Positions 1,438 to 15,465 of a DNA stretch of 44,446 bases are shown in pieces; position 1 is the first letter of the stretch, and the number at the start of each line of letters is the position of its first letter. Origin of the DNA: Caldifarciminota bacterium (lineage in GTDB: Bacteria; Hydrothermota; Tepidihabitantia; SM23-42). Location: NCBI GenBank assembly GCA_030671005.1, contig DAOVAN010000003.1, positions 1 through 44,446 on the forward strand, written 5' to 3'. A program made the translations under genes and the position numbers. The notes beneath the pieces are model-generated. The model was not told the origin of the DNA and did no database searches. It was given only the letters and a program-made list of their open reading frames with translations.

Positions 1438-2547
1438 TTAATCGATCTGACGTCTCAAGAAGGTCGGTACCTCCAAGTCACTTTCGTTGTAGACTCTATC
1501 TTTCCCTTCTTTTTTGACTTCCCGGCGCTTGAACGCTGGTAATTCAAGATTCTCTTGTCGAATACTGATATCGATCGGTTCCTCGCGTACTTTCTCCTTA
1601 ATACCTGTAGCAACAACCATCACGCTTACCTTGCTGCCAATATATTCATCAATGACAACCCCGGTAATCACCTTTGGTTGACTGTCTGTTTCACTCGTAA
1701 TCAGGGATGCTGCCTCATTTGTTTCGGCCAGTGTCAAATCCTGACCGCCCGTGATGTTAATGAGCAATCCCCTTGCTCCCTTAATCGATATGTCGTCGAG
1801 CAAAGGTGAAGAAATGGCCGACTGTGCCGCTTGCATGGCACGATTCTCGCCCTCGCCAATACCTAAACCCATGACCGCGGTTCCCTTCTCGACCATCACT
1901 GTGCGCACATCAGCAAAATCCAGGTTTATTAGTCCTGATTTCGTCACCATCTCGGCAATACCCTTGATCGCGTTGAATAGAACCATGTTGCCCAACCTGA
2001 AGGCCTCAATGATAGACTGATCCTTTGGTGCAACCGCAATCAACTTCTGGTTGGGAATGACAATCAATGTATCGACGTTCTCCTTTAGCTCCTCGATACC
2101 GCTGTGTGCGTTCGTCATCCGCCATACTCCCTCATATTCAAATGGTTTTGTCACAACGGCCACAACCAGAGCCCCAGCATTCTTCGCTTCCTCCGAGATG
2201 ATTGGCGAAGCACCGGTTCCAGTTCCGCCACCTTCACCGCAAGTAACAAACACCATGTCGGCATCCTTAAATACGTCCCTTATCTTCTCCCTTGATTCCT
2301 CAGCAGCCTTGCGGCCAATCTCAGGATCACCACCGGCACCCAATCCCTGAGTAAGATTCGTGCCGATCTGTATCTTCTCATTGGCCTCGTTTACCTTCAA
2401 GACCTGTGCATCGGTATTAACCGCAATGCATTCCACGCCGTGTATTCCGTAGTTCGTTGCATAGTTAATTGTGTTACAGCCTGCGCCACCCACACCAATC
2501 ATTTTGATCTTAGCAATATATTTTGGGTCCTCAACTAATTCGTACAT
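1438..2547 (-). CDS. ftsZ: Cell division GTPase FtsZ with two C-terminal-peptide-like motifs
   Basis: Tubulin-like GTPase that polymerises into the Z-ring at midcell. Family signatures are GVGGAGCN near the N-terminus and the GGGTGTGASP signature loop. The start at 2547 (MYELVEDP) follows AAAGGAGGAAG; the longer ORF in the track runs back into ftsA and is not needed. The protein is 369 aa with a very short linker. The tail holds two motifs resembling the FtsA/ZipA-binding peptide: LELPAFKRR (about 334-342) and the terminal LEVPTFLRR (about 358-366). Most FtsZ proteins have one. The gene is 13 bp after ftsA and almost certainly co-translated with it. Confidence 0.97.
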   Translation of the reverse strand: MYELVEDPKYIAKIKMIGVGGAGCNTINYATNYGIHGVECIAVNTDAQVLKVNEANEKIQIGTNLTQGLGAGGDPEIGRKAAEESREKIRDVFKDADMVFVTCGEGGGTGTGASPIISEEAKNAGALVVAVVTKPFEYEGVWRMTNAHSGIEELKENVDTLIVIPNQKLIAVAPKDQSIIEAFRLGNMVLFNAIKGIAEMVTKSGLINLDFADVRTVMVEKGTAVMGLGIGEGENRAMQAAQSAISSPLLDDISIKGARGLLINITGGQDLTLAETNEAASLITSETDSQPKVITGVVIDEYIGSKVSVMVVATGIKEKVREEPIDISIRQENLELPAFKRREVKKEGKDRVYNESDLEVPTFLRRQID

Positions 2548-2560
2548 ATACTTCCTCCTT

Positions 2561-3793
2561 TCAGAAGTACTTTGCAAACCAATCTTCAAACCTTTTCTTG
2601 AGAGCATCGAAAACACCGACACCCCTTGTCCTTCTAATCAGAACCTGGTTCTTCTTCTCAAAGCCATAGAGAATAAGACCCACACCTGTGGCGTAGATCG
2701 GATCCTGCACTATGTCAGTGAGCCCGCCGATTTTTTTCGGAATGCCGATTTTTACAGGCAGATGAAAAACATCCTCGGCGAGCGCATCCAAGCCTTGCAA
2801 CCGGGCAGTACCACCGGTTATTACTACGCCTGCGGCAAGAATATCGAAGAATCCGCTTCTCTTGATTGCCTTATTAGTGATCATCAATATCTCTTCCACT
2901 CGGGGAGTGACTATCGAAGCGAGTAACTCTCTCGTGATATTACGGTCTTCACGACCTCCTATGCCTGGCACCTTTATCTCTTCTTCTCCCTCTTCATCCG
3001 ATAATGAGATACTCGCATTCTTCCTCTTTATATCTTCCGCCTGTTTATACGGCGTCCTTATACCGATGGCGATGTCATTGGTTATATATTCGCCACCGAG
3101 TGGAACAACCTCAGAATACCTTATTGCTCCATCATAGAATATCGCGAGATCGGTTGTACCGCCCCCGATATCCAAGAGGCAAACACCGAGATCGATCTCG
3201 TCCGGTTGAAGAACCGAATAGGAAGAAGCCAGTGGCTGTAGTACTAAATCCTTGACGCGGAGCCCGGCACTCTCTAGTGCGGTATAGATGTTCTGGGCAG
3301 ACGTGATCGCCGCGGTCACGATATGCACTTCAGCCTCTAGCTTGACACCGCTCATACCCACCGGGTCCTTGATCCCCTTCTCATTATCAACAACATACTC
3401 GATAGGTATGGCATGGATTATCTCACGATCCATGGGTAAAGCAATCGCCTTGGCCTGTTCGATCACCCTCTCGATATCACGTTTCGTAACAACTCCGCCG
3501 GTTCTCGCCGTAGCAATCATTGCGTGAGCATTGATGCTTTCGATGTGCGAGCCTGAAATCCCGGCATAGCAAGAATCGACTTTCACACCCGCCATTCTAG
3601 AGGCTTCATCGACCGCCTTTTCGATGGATTGAATCGCCTTTTCCAAATTGACGATAACCCCCCTCTTCAACCCGTTGGAAGGCGTCGAGCCCACGCCAAT
3701 GATTTTCAGATCGTCACCGTCAACTTCTGCAATGATCGCCGCTATCTTCGTTGTTCCCAGATCGACTCCAACAATTCTCTCTTTCCTTGCCAT
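2561..3793 (-). CDS. ftsA: Cell division protein FtsA
   Basis: Actin-like ATPase that tethers FtsZ to the membrane. The N-terminal VGVDLGTTKIAAI phosphate loop, the LLDIGGGTTDLAIF motif and VITGGTA are typical of FtsA. The extreme C-terminus (KKRFEDWFAKYF) is an amphipathic membrane-targeting helix. Length is 410 aa, as expected. Two adjacent ATGs exist (3796 and 3793); GGAGG is 5 nt before the second and only 2 nt before the first, so 3793 is preferred. It lies between the ftsQ-like gene (18 bp away) and ftsZ, the classic order. Confidence 0.97.
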   Translation of the reverse strand: MARKERIVGVDLGTTKIAAIIAEVDGDDLKIIGVGSTPSNGLKRGVIVNLEKAIQSIEKAVDEASRMAGVKVDSCYAGISGSHIESINAHAMIATARTGGVVTKRDIERVIEQAKAIALPMDREIIHAIPIEYVVDNEKGIKDPVGMSGVKLEAEVHIVTAAITSAQNIYTALESAGLRVKDLVLQPLASSYSVLQPDEIDLGVCLLDIGGGTTDLAIFYDGAIRYSEVVPLGGEYITNDIAIGIRTPYKQAEDIKRKNASISLSDEEGEEEIKVPGIGGREDRNITRELLASIVTPRVEEILMITNKAIKRSGFFDILAAGVVITGGTARLQGLDALAEDVFHLPVKIGIPKKIGGLTDIVQDPIYATGVGLILYGFEKKNQVLIRRTRGVGVFDALKKRFEDWFAKYF

Positions 3794-3811
3794 CATATCC
3801 TCCTTAATGCC

Positions 3812-4102
3812 TCATAAACCTTTCTTAGCTTTTAAAATAATCTGTCCACTATAACTCAAATCAATAACCAACGTTTCCTCAATTCCCAGCAAATTCAATT
3901 TCTGTAGCAAATGCTTCTTCTTCTTCAGGTCATTGGTGCCCAAAACATATCGAACACCCTTGTATTCAACAATTCCATCCTCCCTAGATACTACTTCTCC
4001 ATCAGGTATCACCTCATCCAAAACTACATACTCGTCACGTTCTCGCAGAAGCCCAAACATGAAGACCACGCCAACTATGATCAGCAATAGCACAACAATC
4101 AT
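3812..4102 (-). CDS. Minimal FtsQ/DivIB-like membrane protein
   Basis: A 96-aa protein in the exact slot normally held by ftsQ, between murB (4-bp ATGA overlap) and ftsA. One N-terminal membrane segment (about residues 2-17) is followed by a ~75-residue soluble part. The soluble part carries GVRYVLGTNDL and ends in VIDLSYSGQIILK, which resembles the last strands of the FtsQ beta domain (typically ...IDLRYPGQVIV). The POTRA domain and the first half of the beta domain appear absent; typical FtsQ is 220-280 aa. The open reading frame is clean and well embedded, so this is more likely a reduced FtsQ than a pseudogene. Its role in recruiting FtsB/L-type partners is inferred from position and the weak C-terminal match. 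Confidence 0.6.
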   Translation of the reverse strand: MIVVLLLIIVGVVFMFGLLRERDEYVVLDEVIPDGEVVSREDGIVEYKGVRYVLGTNDLKKKKHLLQKLNLLGIEETLVIDLSYSGQIILKAKKGL

Positions 4103-4983
4103 CTTAATAGTTGCACCTCCTCCTCAAGTATTATCCCGGTTTCTCGACGAACGATTTTCTTTACTTCTTTGGCCAAAACAATAACATCGGCCGCGCGTGC
4201 TTGACCGCGATTCATTATGTAGTTCGCATGTTTCCTGCTGACTTCGGCGTCACCCACTGATGTCCCCTTAAGTCCGCACTGCTCGATCAACTCACCCGCT
4301 GCATAACCTGGCGGATTCTTGAAGAACGAACCAGCAGAATAACCAGTGGGATGTTTTATCTGCCGGCTCTTCGTGTTTCTCCTAATTCTCGCCAAAATAA
4401 CCCTGTGCTTTTCTTTTCTCAATACAAGCTTCACCGATGTGACAATTTCTCCATCCCTGAGTTTCGAACGCCGGTATGCAAATCCCAATTTGTCCTTGAC
4501 TCGTAGCCCTTCAACTCCATGCCTGTCGATAATGGTGGCGCTTTCAATAATATCAGAAATCGAATTCCCAAAAGCACCTGCATTGCCCTTCATTGCGCCA
4601 CCCATGGTACCAGGTATACCGGCCATGAATTCTGCGCCCCCATAACCTTTTCTAATTGCCGCATCCAGAAAATCGCGAATCAATACACCACCACCACAGC
4701 GAAACAGGCTGTCGTGATGGGTAATTCTCTTGAACACTCCGCCCAACTTCAGCACGACGCCTCTAAAACCCTTATCAACAACCAGCAGGTTTGTACCCGC
4801 GCCAACCAGGAAGTATTTCATATCCTGTTTCTTGATGATCCCGAGCACACTCTTCAATGCCTTTACCGAGCAGACATAAACAAAATAGTTCGCAGGCCCA
4901 CCAATATGGAATGATGTATGATCAGCCAGTCTTTCGTTCAACACTACTCTGATGTTTTTTGTGCGGCCGAACGGATTCCTCAT
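4099..4983 (-). CDS. murB: UDP-N-acetylenolpyruvoylglucosamine reductase
   Basis: Flavoenzyme that reduces UDP-GlcNAc-enolpyruvate to UDP-MurNAc. The N-terminal part contains LADHTSFHIGGPA and VGAGTNLLV. The FAD-binding middle has FMAGIPGTMGGAMKGNAGAFG, and the C-terminal domain has the GYSAGSFFKNP motif with the catalytic serine plus HANYIMN. At 294 aa it fits the short type II MurB class. The start follows AAGGAGCTGAG. It overlaps murC by 4 bp (ATGA) and the ftsQ-like gene by 4 bp, so translation is likely coupled. Confidence 0.96.
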   Translation of the reverse strand: MRNPFGRTKNIRVVLNERLADHTSFHIGGPANYFVYVCSVKALKSVLGIIKKQDMKYFLVGAGTNLLVVDKGFRGVVLKLGGVFKRITHHDSLFRCGGGVLIRDFLDAAIRKGYGGAEFMAGIPGTMGGAMKGNAGAFGNSISDIIESATIIDRHGVEGLRVKDKLGFAYRRSKLRDGEIVTSVKLVLRKEKHRVILARIRRNTKSRQIKHPTGYSAGSFFKNPPGYAAGELIEQCGLKGTSVGDAEVSRKHANYIMNRGQARAADVIVLAKEVKKIVRRETGIILEEEVQLLR

Positions 4984-13605: not shown

Positions 13606-15217
13606 AGCGATGGGAGTTCATTTGATATATGCTATGGGCAATGTCTCTGAATACGGGTGCCGTGATCGTACTTGCCCAGTAACCACTCTTGGGCTCGTCA
13701 ACCATAAGGATTATCAGATAGTCTGGCGAAGCAGCCGGAAAATACCCGGCAAAGGTAGTGATGATAGAGCTGTTTGAGTAGGTACCATCGACAACCTTCT
13801 GTGCGGTTCCTGTCTTGCCCGCGATCTTAATGTCATTGAACGCGGCCGCGGTACCACTCCCCTCCTCGACAACGGTACAGAGTATGTCGGTCACTCGGCG
13901 TGCAGTCGGCGCATTGATTACACGTCTGATCCGTAGTGTCTTAGTTTCGTAAACAACTCTCGGGCCTCTTCGAATTTCGCGTACAATCGTAGGTTTGTTC
14001 AGCACGCCGTCATTAGCGATCGCCTGGTAAGCCATTGCCAGCTGAAGCAGGTTCACCGTGAGACCTTGACCAAAGACAAGAGTGGCAAACTCAACATCAT
14101 TGATCTTCATGCCATCGGGTAATCGACCCCGCACCTCGCCCGGAAATTCAATACCGGTGACTTCTCCGAAACCAAAATCCCGCACCATGAGGAGAAAACG
14201 CTCACGATCGAACTTCCTTGATAACTTGACCATCGCAACATTGCTGGAATGAGCAATCGCCTGTCTCAAGGTGACAATGCCGTAGTCTCTATAATCATTT
14301 ATCAAATGGCCGCGCACTCTTATCTTTCCATCCTCGGTATCGATGATATCGGCTTCTTTTACGCCGTTCTGTAGAGCGTAGGTGAGGGGCATCAATTTGA
14401 AGGTCGATCCGGGTTCGAATTCATCGCAGATTATGTGATTTCTCTGATCACCGTCCTTACCAACATTGACCATGGCAAGGATATCCCCGGTGCCCGGTTC
14501 GATAATCAAACCGCACGCCGACTGCGCGTCTTCGCTCCGGTGACAATCACTTAGGTTTTTGTGAAGAATTGCCTGCAACTGGAGATCGATGGTCAGGTAG
14601 ATATCCCTGCCCGGCCGCGGTTCTTTCTCGGGATGATTATGATACGGAAAAATCCCGCCCGTCGGGTCCTTCTGATATATCGCGAATCCTGTCTCACCGC
14701 TAAGAATGTCATTGAATTGCAACTCCAGGCCTTCGATGCCACGATTATCTGAACCGCATTTGCCAATGAGGCTCGCAAAGATCTCGGGCATGTTATACCG
14801 TCGATTTAAATCATGAGTATATCCAATACTGGGGTCATCAATTGCAAGATATCGGTCACGTTGTCTTTTATCCACCTTCATCTCCACCCAAAAGAATTCA
14901 CGGCTGCCAATCTGCTTCTTGATACGACTCCTCGATTTCCCGGAAACCTTTGCAATCTCACGCGTCAGCCTGCCGACGTCACCGGCATAACGCGGCGTGC
15001 AGAAAACTGAAAAACATTGTTCAGATGTAGCAATGGCCACACCGTTACGATCATATATGTTACCTCTTGCTCCCAGCAGCACAAACTTTTTCTCGTGCTG
15101 CCGCTTGGCTCTATTTTCGTAGTACTGATGTTTGAAGCATTGTATATAAAAAAGGTAGGAAAAGAAAACAACCGAGACAAAAAAGAGGAGAAAATTTAAA
15201 AACTTCGTCCGGATCAT
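13592..15217 (-). CDS. ftsI: Septal penicillin-binding protein FtsI/PBP3 type transpeptidase
   Basis: Class B PBP that crosslinks septal peptidoglycan with FtsW. It has a cytoplasmic stub, one membrane segment (about residues 9-25) and the dimerisation domain with RGNIYDRNG. The transpeptidase domain carries the catalytic S271TFK, the SSN triad near 324 and the AGKTGTAQK box in the C-terminal third. It ends soon after the catalytic domain with no PASTA repeats. Length 541 aa. It overlaps the ftsL-like gene by 4 bp and murE by 14 bp. The position makes FtsI more likely than a sporulation or elongation PBP. Confidence 0.94.
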   Translation of the reverse strand: MIRTKFLNFLLFFVSVVFFSYLFYIQCFKHQYYENRAKRQHEKKFVLLGARGNIYDRNGVAIATSEQCFSVFCTPRYAGDVGRLTREIAKVSGKSRSRIKKQIGSREFFWVEMKVDKRQRDRYLAIDDPSIGYTHDLNRRYNMPEIFASLIGKCGSDNRGIEGLELQFNDILSGETGFAIYQKDPTGGIFPYHNHPEKEPRPGRDIYLTIDLQLQAILHKNLSDCHRSEDAQSACGLIIEPGTGDILAMVNVGKDGDQRNHIICDEFEPGSTFKLMPLTYALQNGVKEADIIDTEDGKIRVRGHLINDYRDYGIVTLRQAIAHSSNVAMVKLSRKFDRERFLLMVRDFGFGEVTGIEFPGEVRGRLPDGMKINDVEFATLVFGQGLTVNLLQLAMAYQAIANDGVLNKPTIVREIRRGPRVVYETKTLRIRRVINAPTARRVTDILCTVVEEGSGTAAAFNDIKIAGKTGTAQKVVDGTYSNSSIITTFAGYFPAASPDYLIILMVDEPKSGYWASTITAPVFRDIAHSIYQMNSHRYAVK

Positions 15218-15465
15218 TCAACCACCCCTAATATGTCATCTCTATCAGGAAAGACATAGCCCATCGCCTTTGCCGCGGTTTCGATATCGGCGAGATTGGC
15301 AAGACCGATCAATTCAAATTCCAATTGTTTCTTCTCGTTTCTCAATGCGACAACACGATTTTTCAAATCTTCCTTACGCACCTCGCTCTTTACCAGTTCG
15401 CTCTCAAGGAGCACGAGCAAGAACAAGTATGCTATAACACCTACAAATATTATGAGCACACGCAT
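15214..15465 (-). CDS. FtsL-like bitopic division protein
   Basis: A small 83-aa protein between rsmH and ftsI, the standard place for ftsL. One N-terminal membrane segment (about residues 3-20) is followed by a charged heptad-like coiled coil (ESELVKSEVRKEDLKNRV). The end is typical of FtsL/FtsB proteins, with ETAAKAMGYVFPD (family pattern IE..A...LGM..P). By analogy it forms a coiled coil with FtsB and activates FtsW-FtsI. Sequence identity in this family is always low, so the call depends on size, topology, the motif at the end and synteny. It overlaps both neighbours. Confidence 0.75.
   Translation of the reverse strand: MRVLIIFVGVIAYLFLLVLLESELVKSEVRKEDLKNRVVALRNEKKQLEFELIGLANLADIETAAKAMGYVFPDRDDILGVVE

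Follow-up and report, generated by a model that had tools for sequence, protein, structure and literature searches.

FtsQ is regarded as the hub that joins the early and the late proteins of the divisome, with its POTRA domain as the domain of recruitment. The FtsQ/DivIB proteins (E. coli FtsQ, PDB 2VH1, 6H9N and 8HHF; P. aeruginosa FtsQ, 8BH1) comprise 215–287 residues, are encoded ahead of ftsA in the dcw cluster, have a single N-terminal membrane helix and end in a helix and two last strands that carry a DLRY/F docking motif. In E. coli, residues 64–87 of FtsB dock onto the final β-domain strand of FtsQ; Y248 of FtsQ is central to this interface and D245 and R247 are located at salt bridges, while a Y248F variant is tolerated and complements and R247Q is harmless (PMC6134095). 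In the full E. coli complex FtsQ S250–W256, FtsB E83–P88 and FtsL E115–V118 form one sheet, and FtsQ R213 together with the β10–α6 linker is part of site II (PMC10076392). The chlamydial FtsQ (Ct764) is reported to have no identifiable POTRA domain, and a different recruitment route has been proposed for it (PMC4643143).

The protein described here, termed mini-FtsQ, is composed of 98 amino acids and shares with FtsQ/DivIB the position ahead of ftsA, the single N-terminal membrane helix and the C-terminal helix and strand pair with the docking motif, but it lacks the POTRA domain, the first half of the β-domain and any Pfam match. Ct764, which is likewise without a recognisable POTRA domain, is its nearest precedent. 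However, Ct764 keeps a large periplasmic domain that has been modelled on the whole of FtsQ, whereas the protein from candidate division WOR-3 consists of the docking end only and belongs to an FtsZ/FtsA-based divisome. In a search of mainly open-access literature, we came across no earlier description of a mini-FtsQ or of WOR-3 lineages that have lost FtsQ.

The mini-ftsQ gene and its probable start codon

The window, that is, the whole 44,446-nucleotide stretch of DNA that was analysed, corresponds to contig 62 in a metagenome-assembled genome of 1.64 Mb with 94.5% completeness, and its nearest relatives are metagenome-assembled genomes of candidate division WOR-3 (Stahlbacteria). Its minus strand contains a dcw cluster with the order mraZ-mraW-ftsL-ftsI-murE-murF-mraY-murD-ftsW-murG-murC-murB-[ORF]-ftsA-ftsZ, where genes outside the family searches are named from sequence and gene order. 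The frame between murB and ftsA is mini-ftsQ (3812–4108, minus strand; 98 codons and a stop from a probable AUU start, with the ATG-started form of 96 codons at 3812–4102). The upstream neighbour murB (4099–4983, minus strand; MurB_C, 1.3e-32) overlaps its start and ftsA (2561–3796, minus strand; FtsA, 3.1e-43) lies directly downstream, so that the order murB, mini-ftsQ, ftsA, ftsZ is found in the window as in its relatives. The ftsL gene (15214–15465, minus strand), which precedes ftsI, encodes 83 residues with a membrane helix and a coiled coil (NF053549 FtsL, 3.7e-05, under the cut-off of that model), and its product is the probable partner of mini-FtsQ together with FtsB. An earlier note on this DNA, made from the sequence alone, had described an FtsQ-like gene of less than half the normal length at the ftsQ position and with one membrane helix, and the open reading frame proved to be real.

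The short N-terminus of mini-FtsQ is probably cytoplasmic, judging from its Lys and Arg residues, and leads into the one hydrophobic helix of the protein, a transmembrane helix (residues 2–21; 4046–4105, minus strand) indicated by the AlphaFold models and the hydrophobic sequence. A lineage-specific linker (residues 22–47; 3968–4045, minus strand), with a short helix at 30–33 and a strand at 38–41, occupies the place that POTRA and the beginning of the β-domain have in FtsQ. The FtsQ-homologous C-terminal segment (residues 48–98; 3815–3967, minus strand) comprises the end of a strand (46–49), a strand (52–55), a helix (61–70) and two strands (79–83 and 91–94), and the protein ends in VIDLSYSGQIILKAKKGL.

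When 61 related genomes were searched with the window protein, mini-FtsQ was found in all sampled members of the genus, in all but one member of the family and in all four members of another family in the order, with no convincing match outside those two families. In the one exception within the family, G012, the region around ftsA is broken or masked. The gene is present in every intact relative checked in the order, which amounts to 26 genomes (the window and 25 others) from 13 genera; it is located between murB and ftsA wherever the flanks are available, and its product is always 98–116 residues long. The dN/dS ratio ranges from 0.10 to 0.33 in the seven pairs with usable dS, and the gene is evidently under purifying selection. 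The alignment of the 26 proteins yields the consensus LxEVIPxxxIISxEEGIIEYKGVxYILGTNDLKxKKxLIESLxLLxLExxxIVDLRFxxQIIIR.

The length of 96 residues reported in the earlier note is correct as the number of codons from the ATG, but the start is not, as the true start is most likely an ATT codon six bases upstream (4106–4108, minus strand), which would give 98 residues. This codon is invariant in all 22 genes of family f1, in each of which it lies seven bases past a GGAGG-like or GAGG sequence; in the window this Shine–Dalgarno sequence, GAGGAGGAGG (4116–4125, minus strand), is located within the 3′ end of murB and 7 nt ahead of the ATT. We consider ATT the probable start because several of the homologues have no early in-frame NTG codon and because the Shine–Dalgarno sequence and the ATT are synonymously invariant within the end of murB. 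In several f1 genes, no in-frame ATG, GTG or TTG occurs before codon 10 to 32, and none ahead of the middle of the membrane helix. Within the last 60 murB codons of 22 genomes only three third positions are invariant, and these belong to the GAG of the Shine–Dalgarno sequence and to the codon pair xxA TTA, which contains the ATT. This constancy is seen although TTA makes up 8.4% of the window's Leu codons and the amino acid just ahead of it in murB varies. The mini-ftsQ genes of family f2 start with ATG. In E. coli, AUU starts are otherwise known only for infC and pcnB, where they limit expression (PMC9410913).

Homology to the C-terminal end of FtsQ

The window protein matches no FtsQ model of Pfam or NCBIfam: PF08478 (FtsQ-type POTRA) is absent from it in a Pfam search, and PF03799 (the β-domain, 114 positions) gives no match, with just the last ∼50 residues aligning. 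Against an FtsQ HMM the protein alone reaches an E-value of 0.022, which is among the weakest, and one shuffled sequence and one chance open reading frame score better. Since the single protein scores weakly and is without a match to a curated model, its homology to FtsQ rests on the family profile. When the minis were compared with 29 POTRA-bearing FtsQs by HHalign, the last 51 columns aligned with a probability of 95.8% (E 7.4e-9). The score was 56.0, whereas none of 150 column shuffles scored above 24.7 and reversing the alignment gave 18.6. The 26 minis compared with POTRA-bearing FtsQs of other phyla gave a probability of 93.1 (P 3e-7). Moreover, an HMM built from POTRA-bearing FtsQs only ranked 31 of 34 minis and β-only forms above the best of 1700 shuffles and above the other open reading frames of the window. 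A profile made from the minis only produced chance matches among PDB sequences.

AlphaFold2 with an alignment of minis only gave a pLDDT of 59.7, and fold searches with that model were empty or meaningless. Adding rows with the last 66 residues of other FtsQs resulted in a pLDDT of 89.0 and a pTM of 0.69, although this confident model is partly circular, FtsQ tails being present in its alignment. The high pLDDT includes the linker, a region outside the coverage of the FtsQ tails. The predicted order of elements is membrane helix, short helix, strand, hairpin, helix and two strands. In a Foldseek search of 350,542 PDB chains, ranks 1–10 were all FtsQ (8bh1, 8p1u, 2vh1, 6h9o, 2vh2, 8hhf and 5z2w); the best match was 8bh1_C (probability 0.96), and the E-values of the FtsQ matches were 0.09–0.9, the domain being so small. 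The FtsQ relationship suggested in the earlier note is borne out by the HMM–HMM comparison, which with 95.8% probability matches the final ∼50 residues to the FtsQ C-terminus, and the C-terminal strand that it likened to the end of the β-domain agrees with the fold predicted by modelling. Its proposal that the POTRA domain has been lost holds for the absence of that domain and understates the extent of the loss, as about half of the β-domain is gone as well.

Aligned by means of the full-FtsQ profile, the retained segment falls at about W199–W256 of E. coli FtsQ (numbering read off the alignment). This is the FtsB docking site of the E. coli protein; what is missing is the POTRA domain plus, approximately, the β-domain's first half. 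The putative FtsB-docking strand, D83-L-S-Y86...K94 (3827–3862, minus strand), corresponds to D245-L-R-Y248...W256 of E. coli FtsQ (PMC6134095, PMC10076392). Among the minis, D83 (the equivalent of D245) is invariant and position 86 (the equivalent of Y248) is always Tyr or Phe, while the R247 equivalent is Ser in the window protein and its closest relative.

FtsQ forms and FtsB tails across the phylum

The murB–ftsA interval was examined in representatives of about 30 families, which are referred to by family codes (f-numbers). A full FtsQ is encoded in f11–f16, f29, f30, f36 and the outgroup phyla. A POTRA-less FtsQ of about 130–160 residues that has much of the β-domain occurs in f28 (L263) and f21 (L250 and L251). 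Mini-FtsQ is found in f1 and f2 (with the window), f3, f17, f18 and f19, and no ftsQ is present at the locus in f4–f9, f22, f25–f27, f37 and f32–f34. The POTRA-less proteins of f28, f21, f17, f18, f19 and f3 have the same locus and the same C-terminal end as the window protein; f28 and f21 differ in retaining more of the β-domain and f17, f18 and f19 in being separate reductions according to the FtsA tree, while f3 falls within the clade of the window. In that tree f1–f3 form one clade (SH-aLRT 100) beside f4 and f8, both without ftsQ, and the mini state requires three changes and the presence or absence of POTRA four. The minis probably arose three times, and at least twice. A single origin of all minis was rejected by an AU test (p-AU 0.00175), in which the groups were named post hoc from a tree with long branches.

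At Pfam cut-offs, PF08478/POTRA_1 has no match in 65 genomes of the class, and PF03799 none in 59. As a positive control, the POTRA model recovers 17 of 17 outgroup FtsQs and several in sister classes, and diverged FtsQs of the phylum can be missed by it. The sub-threshold POTRA_1 matches are mostly in open frames of 550–785 residues, a length typical of outer-membrane or secretion proteins. The full-FtsQ profile revealed no hidden FtsQ in the ftsQ-less genomes; the minis known from G000 and G027 likewise escaped this profile, so a hidden mini may be present in the ftsQ-less genomes.

The loci without ftsQ differ in their arrangement. In the sister families f4 and f8, murB is joined directly to ftsA, and in genus g19 of f4 (L044 and L140) murC and murB are apparently one continuous open frame that leads straight into ftsA. 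In f32–f34 (L239, L243, L244, L247, L233, L237 and L262) murC is followed by ftsA, and both murB and ftsQ are absent from the locus. The short murB–ftsA spacer of f37-type genomes (L053, L054, L056, L061 and L065) consists of tandem ‘tcgtcaa’-like repeats, as deduced from translations.

FtsB (PF04977) was detected in most genomes. It was not found in the window's own genome (94.5% complete), which is probably an assembly gap, but the genus-mate G001 has an FtsB, whose sequence ...AREDLGMIKEGEKIYL... aligns with the E. coli docking strand ...ARNELSMTRPGETFYR... The docking tail (GEKxY) is kept in the mini-bearing lineages. A strict form of the motif occurs in 11 of 12 families with full, β-only or mini FtsQ versus 0 of 8 without ftsQ (Fisher p 7e-5, for a motif set after viewing the sequences and families that are not independent), and the sole FtsQ-bearing family that fails reads GEQVYL, one letter off. 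With a looser motif f4 (partly) and f37 pass despite having no ftsQ (p 0.004). The comparison omits eight non-FtsB or mis-picked open reading frames (L276, L272, L292, L290, L289, L307, L308 and L314). Since the docking tail is co-retained with the FtsQ forms, these data are suggestive of minis that still bind FtsB.

FtsB proteins without the FtsQ-binding C-terminal strand were seen in f4 (L188, L192, L195 and L196), in f6, f7 and f9 (L295–L304) and in f32–f34 (L274, L279, L282 and L286), where FtsB ends just ahead of the docking strand. Although the murB–ftsA interval of family f37 (L277, L280, L284 and L285, with L225–L228) contains no ftsQ, most of the FtsB docking tail is kept (GEKC-T-L). 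Because of this partial tail, f37 would be expected to have either a diverged FtsQ that escaped notice or a substitute for it.

A proposed reduced FtsQ and alternative explanations

We propose, with good confidence, that mini-ftsQ encodes a vertically inherited and functional FtsQ that is drastically reduced, having lost POTRA along with the first half of its β-domain, and that serves as an FtsB clamp in the inner membrane. Anchored there, it would clamp the tail of FtsB by strand addition and so hold the FtsB–FtsL coiled coil, and it may thereby act as a holder or regulator of FtsBL upstream of FtsW–FtsI. Recruitment that depends on POTRA would have been lost, and the protein would reach the septum without a POTRA contact.

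Split or re-encoded domains are common among bacteria, and mini-FtsQ could be merely the C-terminal half of a split FtsQ, with the POTRA domain and the remainder supplied in trans by a separate gene, as whole genomes were covered by profile search only. We regard this as improbable given that POTRA_1 exceeds its cut-off in none of the 65 genomes of the class, that the sub-threshold matches are mostly large frames, and that the mini has its own membrane anchor. To the same small degree one may suspect a vestige of little function, an FtsQ decaying towards the full loss seen in the sister families f4 and f8, where murB is joined to ftsA; an AUU start, presumably inefficient, would fit such decay. 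However, the constant length and invariant interface residues over 13 genera, the dN/dS of 0.1–0.3, the FtsB docking tail conserved alongside and a start site under selection are all at odds with a remnant.

Slightly less probable again is an unrelated small membrane protein at the ftsQ position with a chance likeness to the end of FtsQ. The segment is indeed short (about 50 residues) and no curated FtsQ model reaches its cut-off, but the shuffle controls, the all-FtsQ top of the Foldseek list, the intermediate forms in sister families and the invariant interface residues argue for homology. In a metagenome assembly one might suspect that a normal ftsQ has been shortened by an assembly error, a frameshift or a local truncation, but the probability of this is negligible: the same gene is present in 26 independent assemblies, among them several chromosomes in a single contig, and the murB–ftsA gap is too small for a longer gene. 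Local truncation is excluded because relatives in the order carry the same short protein rather than a full-length FtsQ, with 26 genomes sharing its place and length under purifying selection.

The reduced FtsQ would be a selected, natural protein made of an anchor and an FtsB dock, and since the phylum also has graded intermediates and further, independent reductions of this kind, it bears on the question of which part of FtsQ is essential; it suggests that the remainder of FtsQ beyond the anchor and the FtsB grip is dispensable in this WOR-3 group. As a small natural construct it comes with a prediction, namely that FtsB is tail-less where FtsQ is gone, and it represents a large clade in which standard annotation overlooks FtsQ. 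A wider scenario, which we put forward tentatively and as somewhat short of probable, is that FtsQ has been repeatedly reduced in WOR-3 to an FtsB clamp and then lost along with the FtsB tail. Holding FtsB would then be the indispensable task of FtsQ and POTRA recruitment optional, some FtsZ-dividers would run FtsW–FtsI on FtsB–FtsL alone, and the AUU start of f1 would serve to keep the dose low.

The FtsZ of the window has two motifs that resemble the conserved C-terminal peptide, NLELPAFKRREV and DLEVPTFLRRQID (window 1438–1530). The double tail, also present in L043, L046, L048 and L137–L141, is frequent among lineages in this part of the tree, whether or not they have a full FtsQ. The earlier speculation that it compensates for the shortened FtsQ finds no support in this distribution, as the double tail is present in many full-FtsQ lineages (TA06, Zixibacteria and others) and absent in several that lack ftsQ (f6 and f9). 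A direct repeat of ∼125 bases (..caatatccgacac..caacaaatgggctagggtaaagacgccaaaatctagcatctcaaccctagccctacacccat..), spotted by eye, is located beside trxB at about 120–420 of the window.
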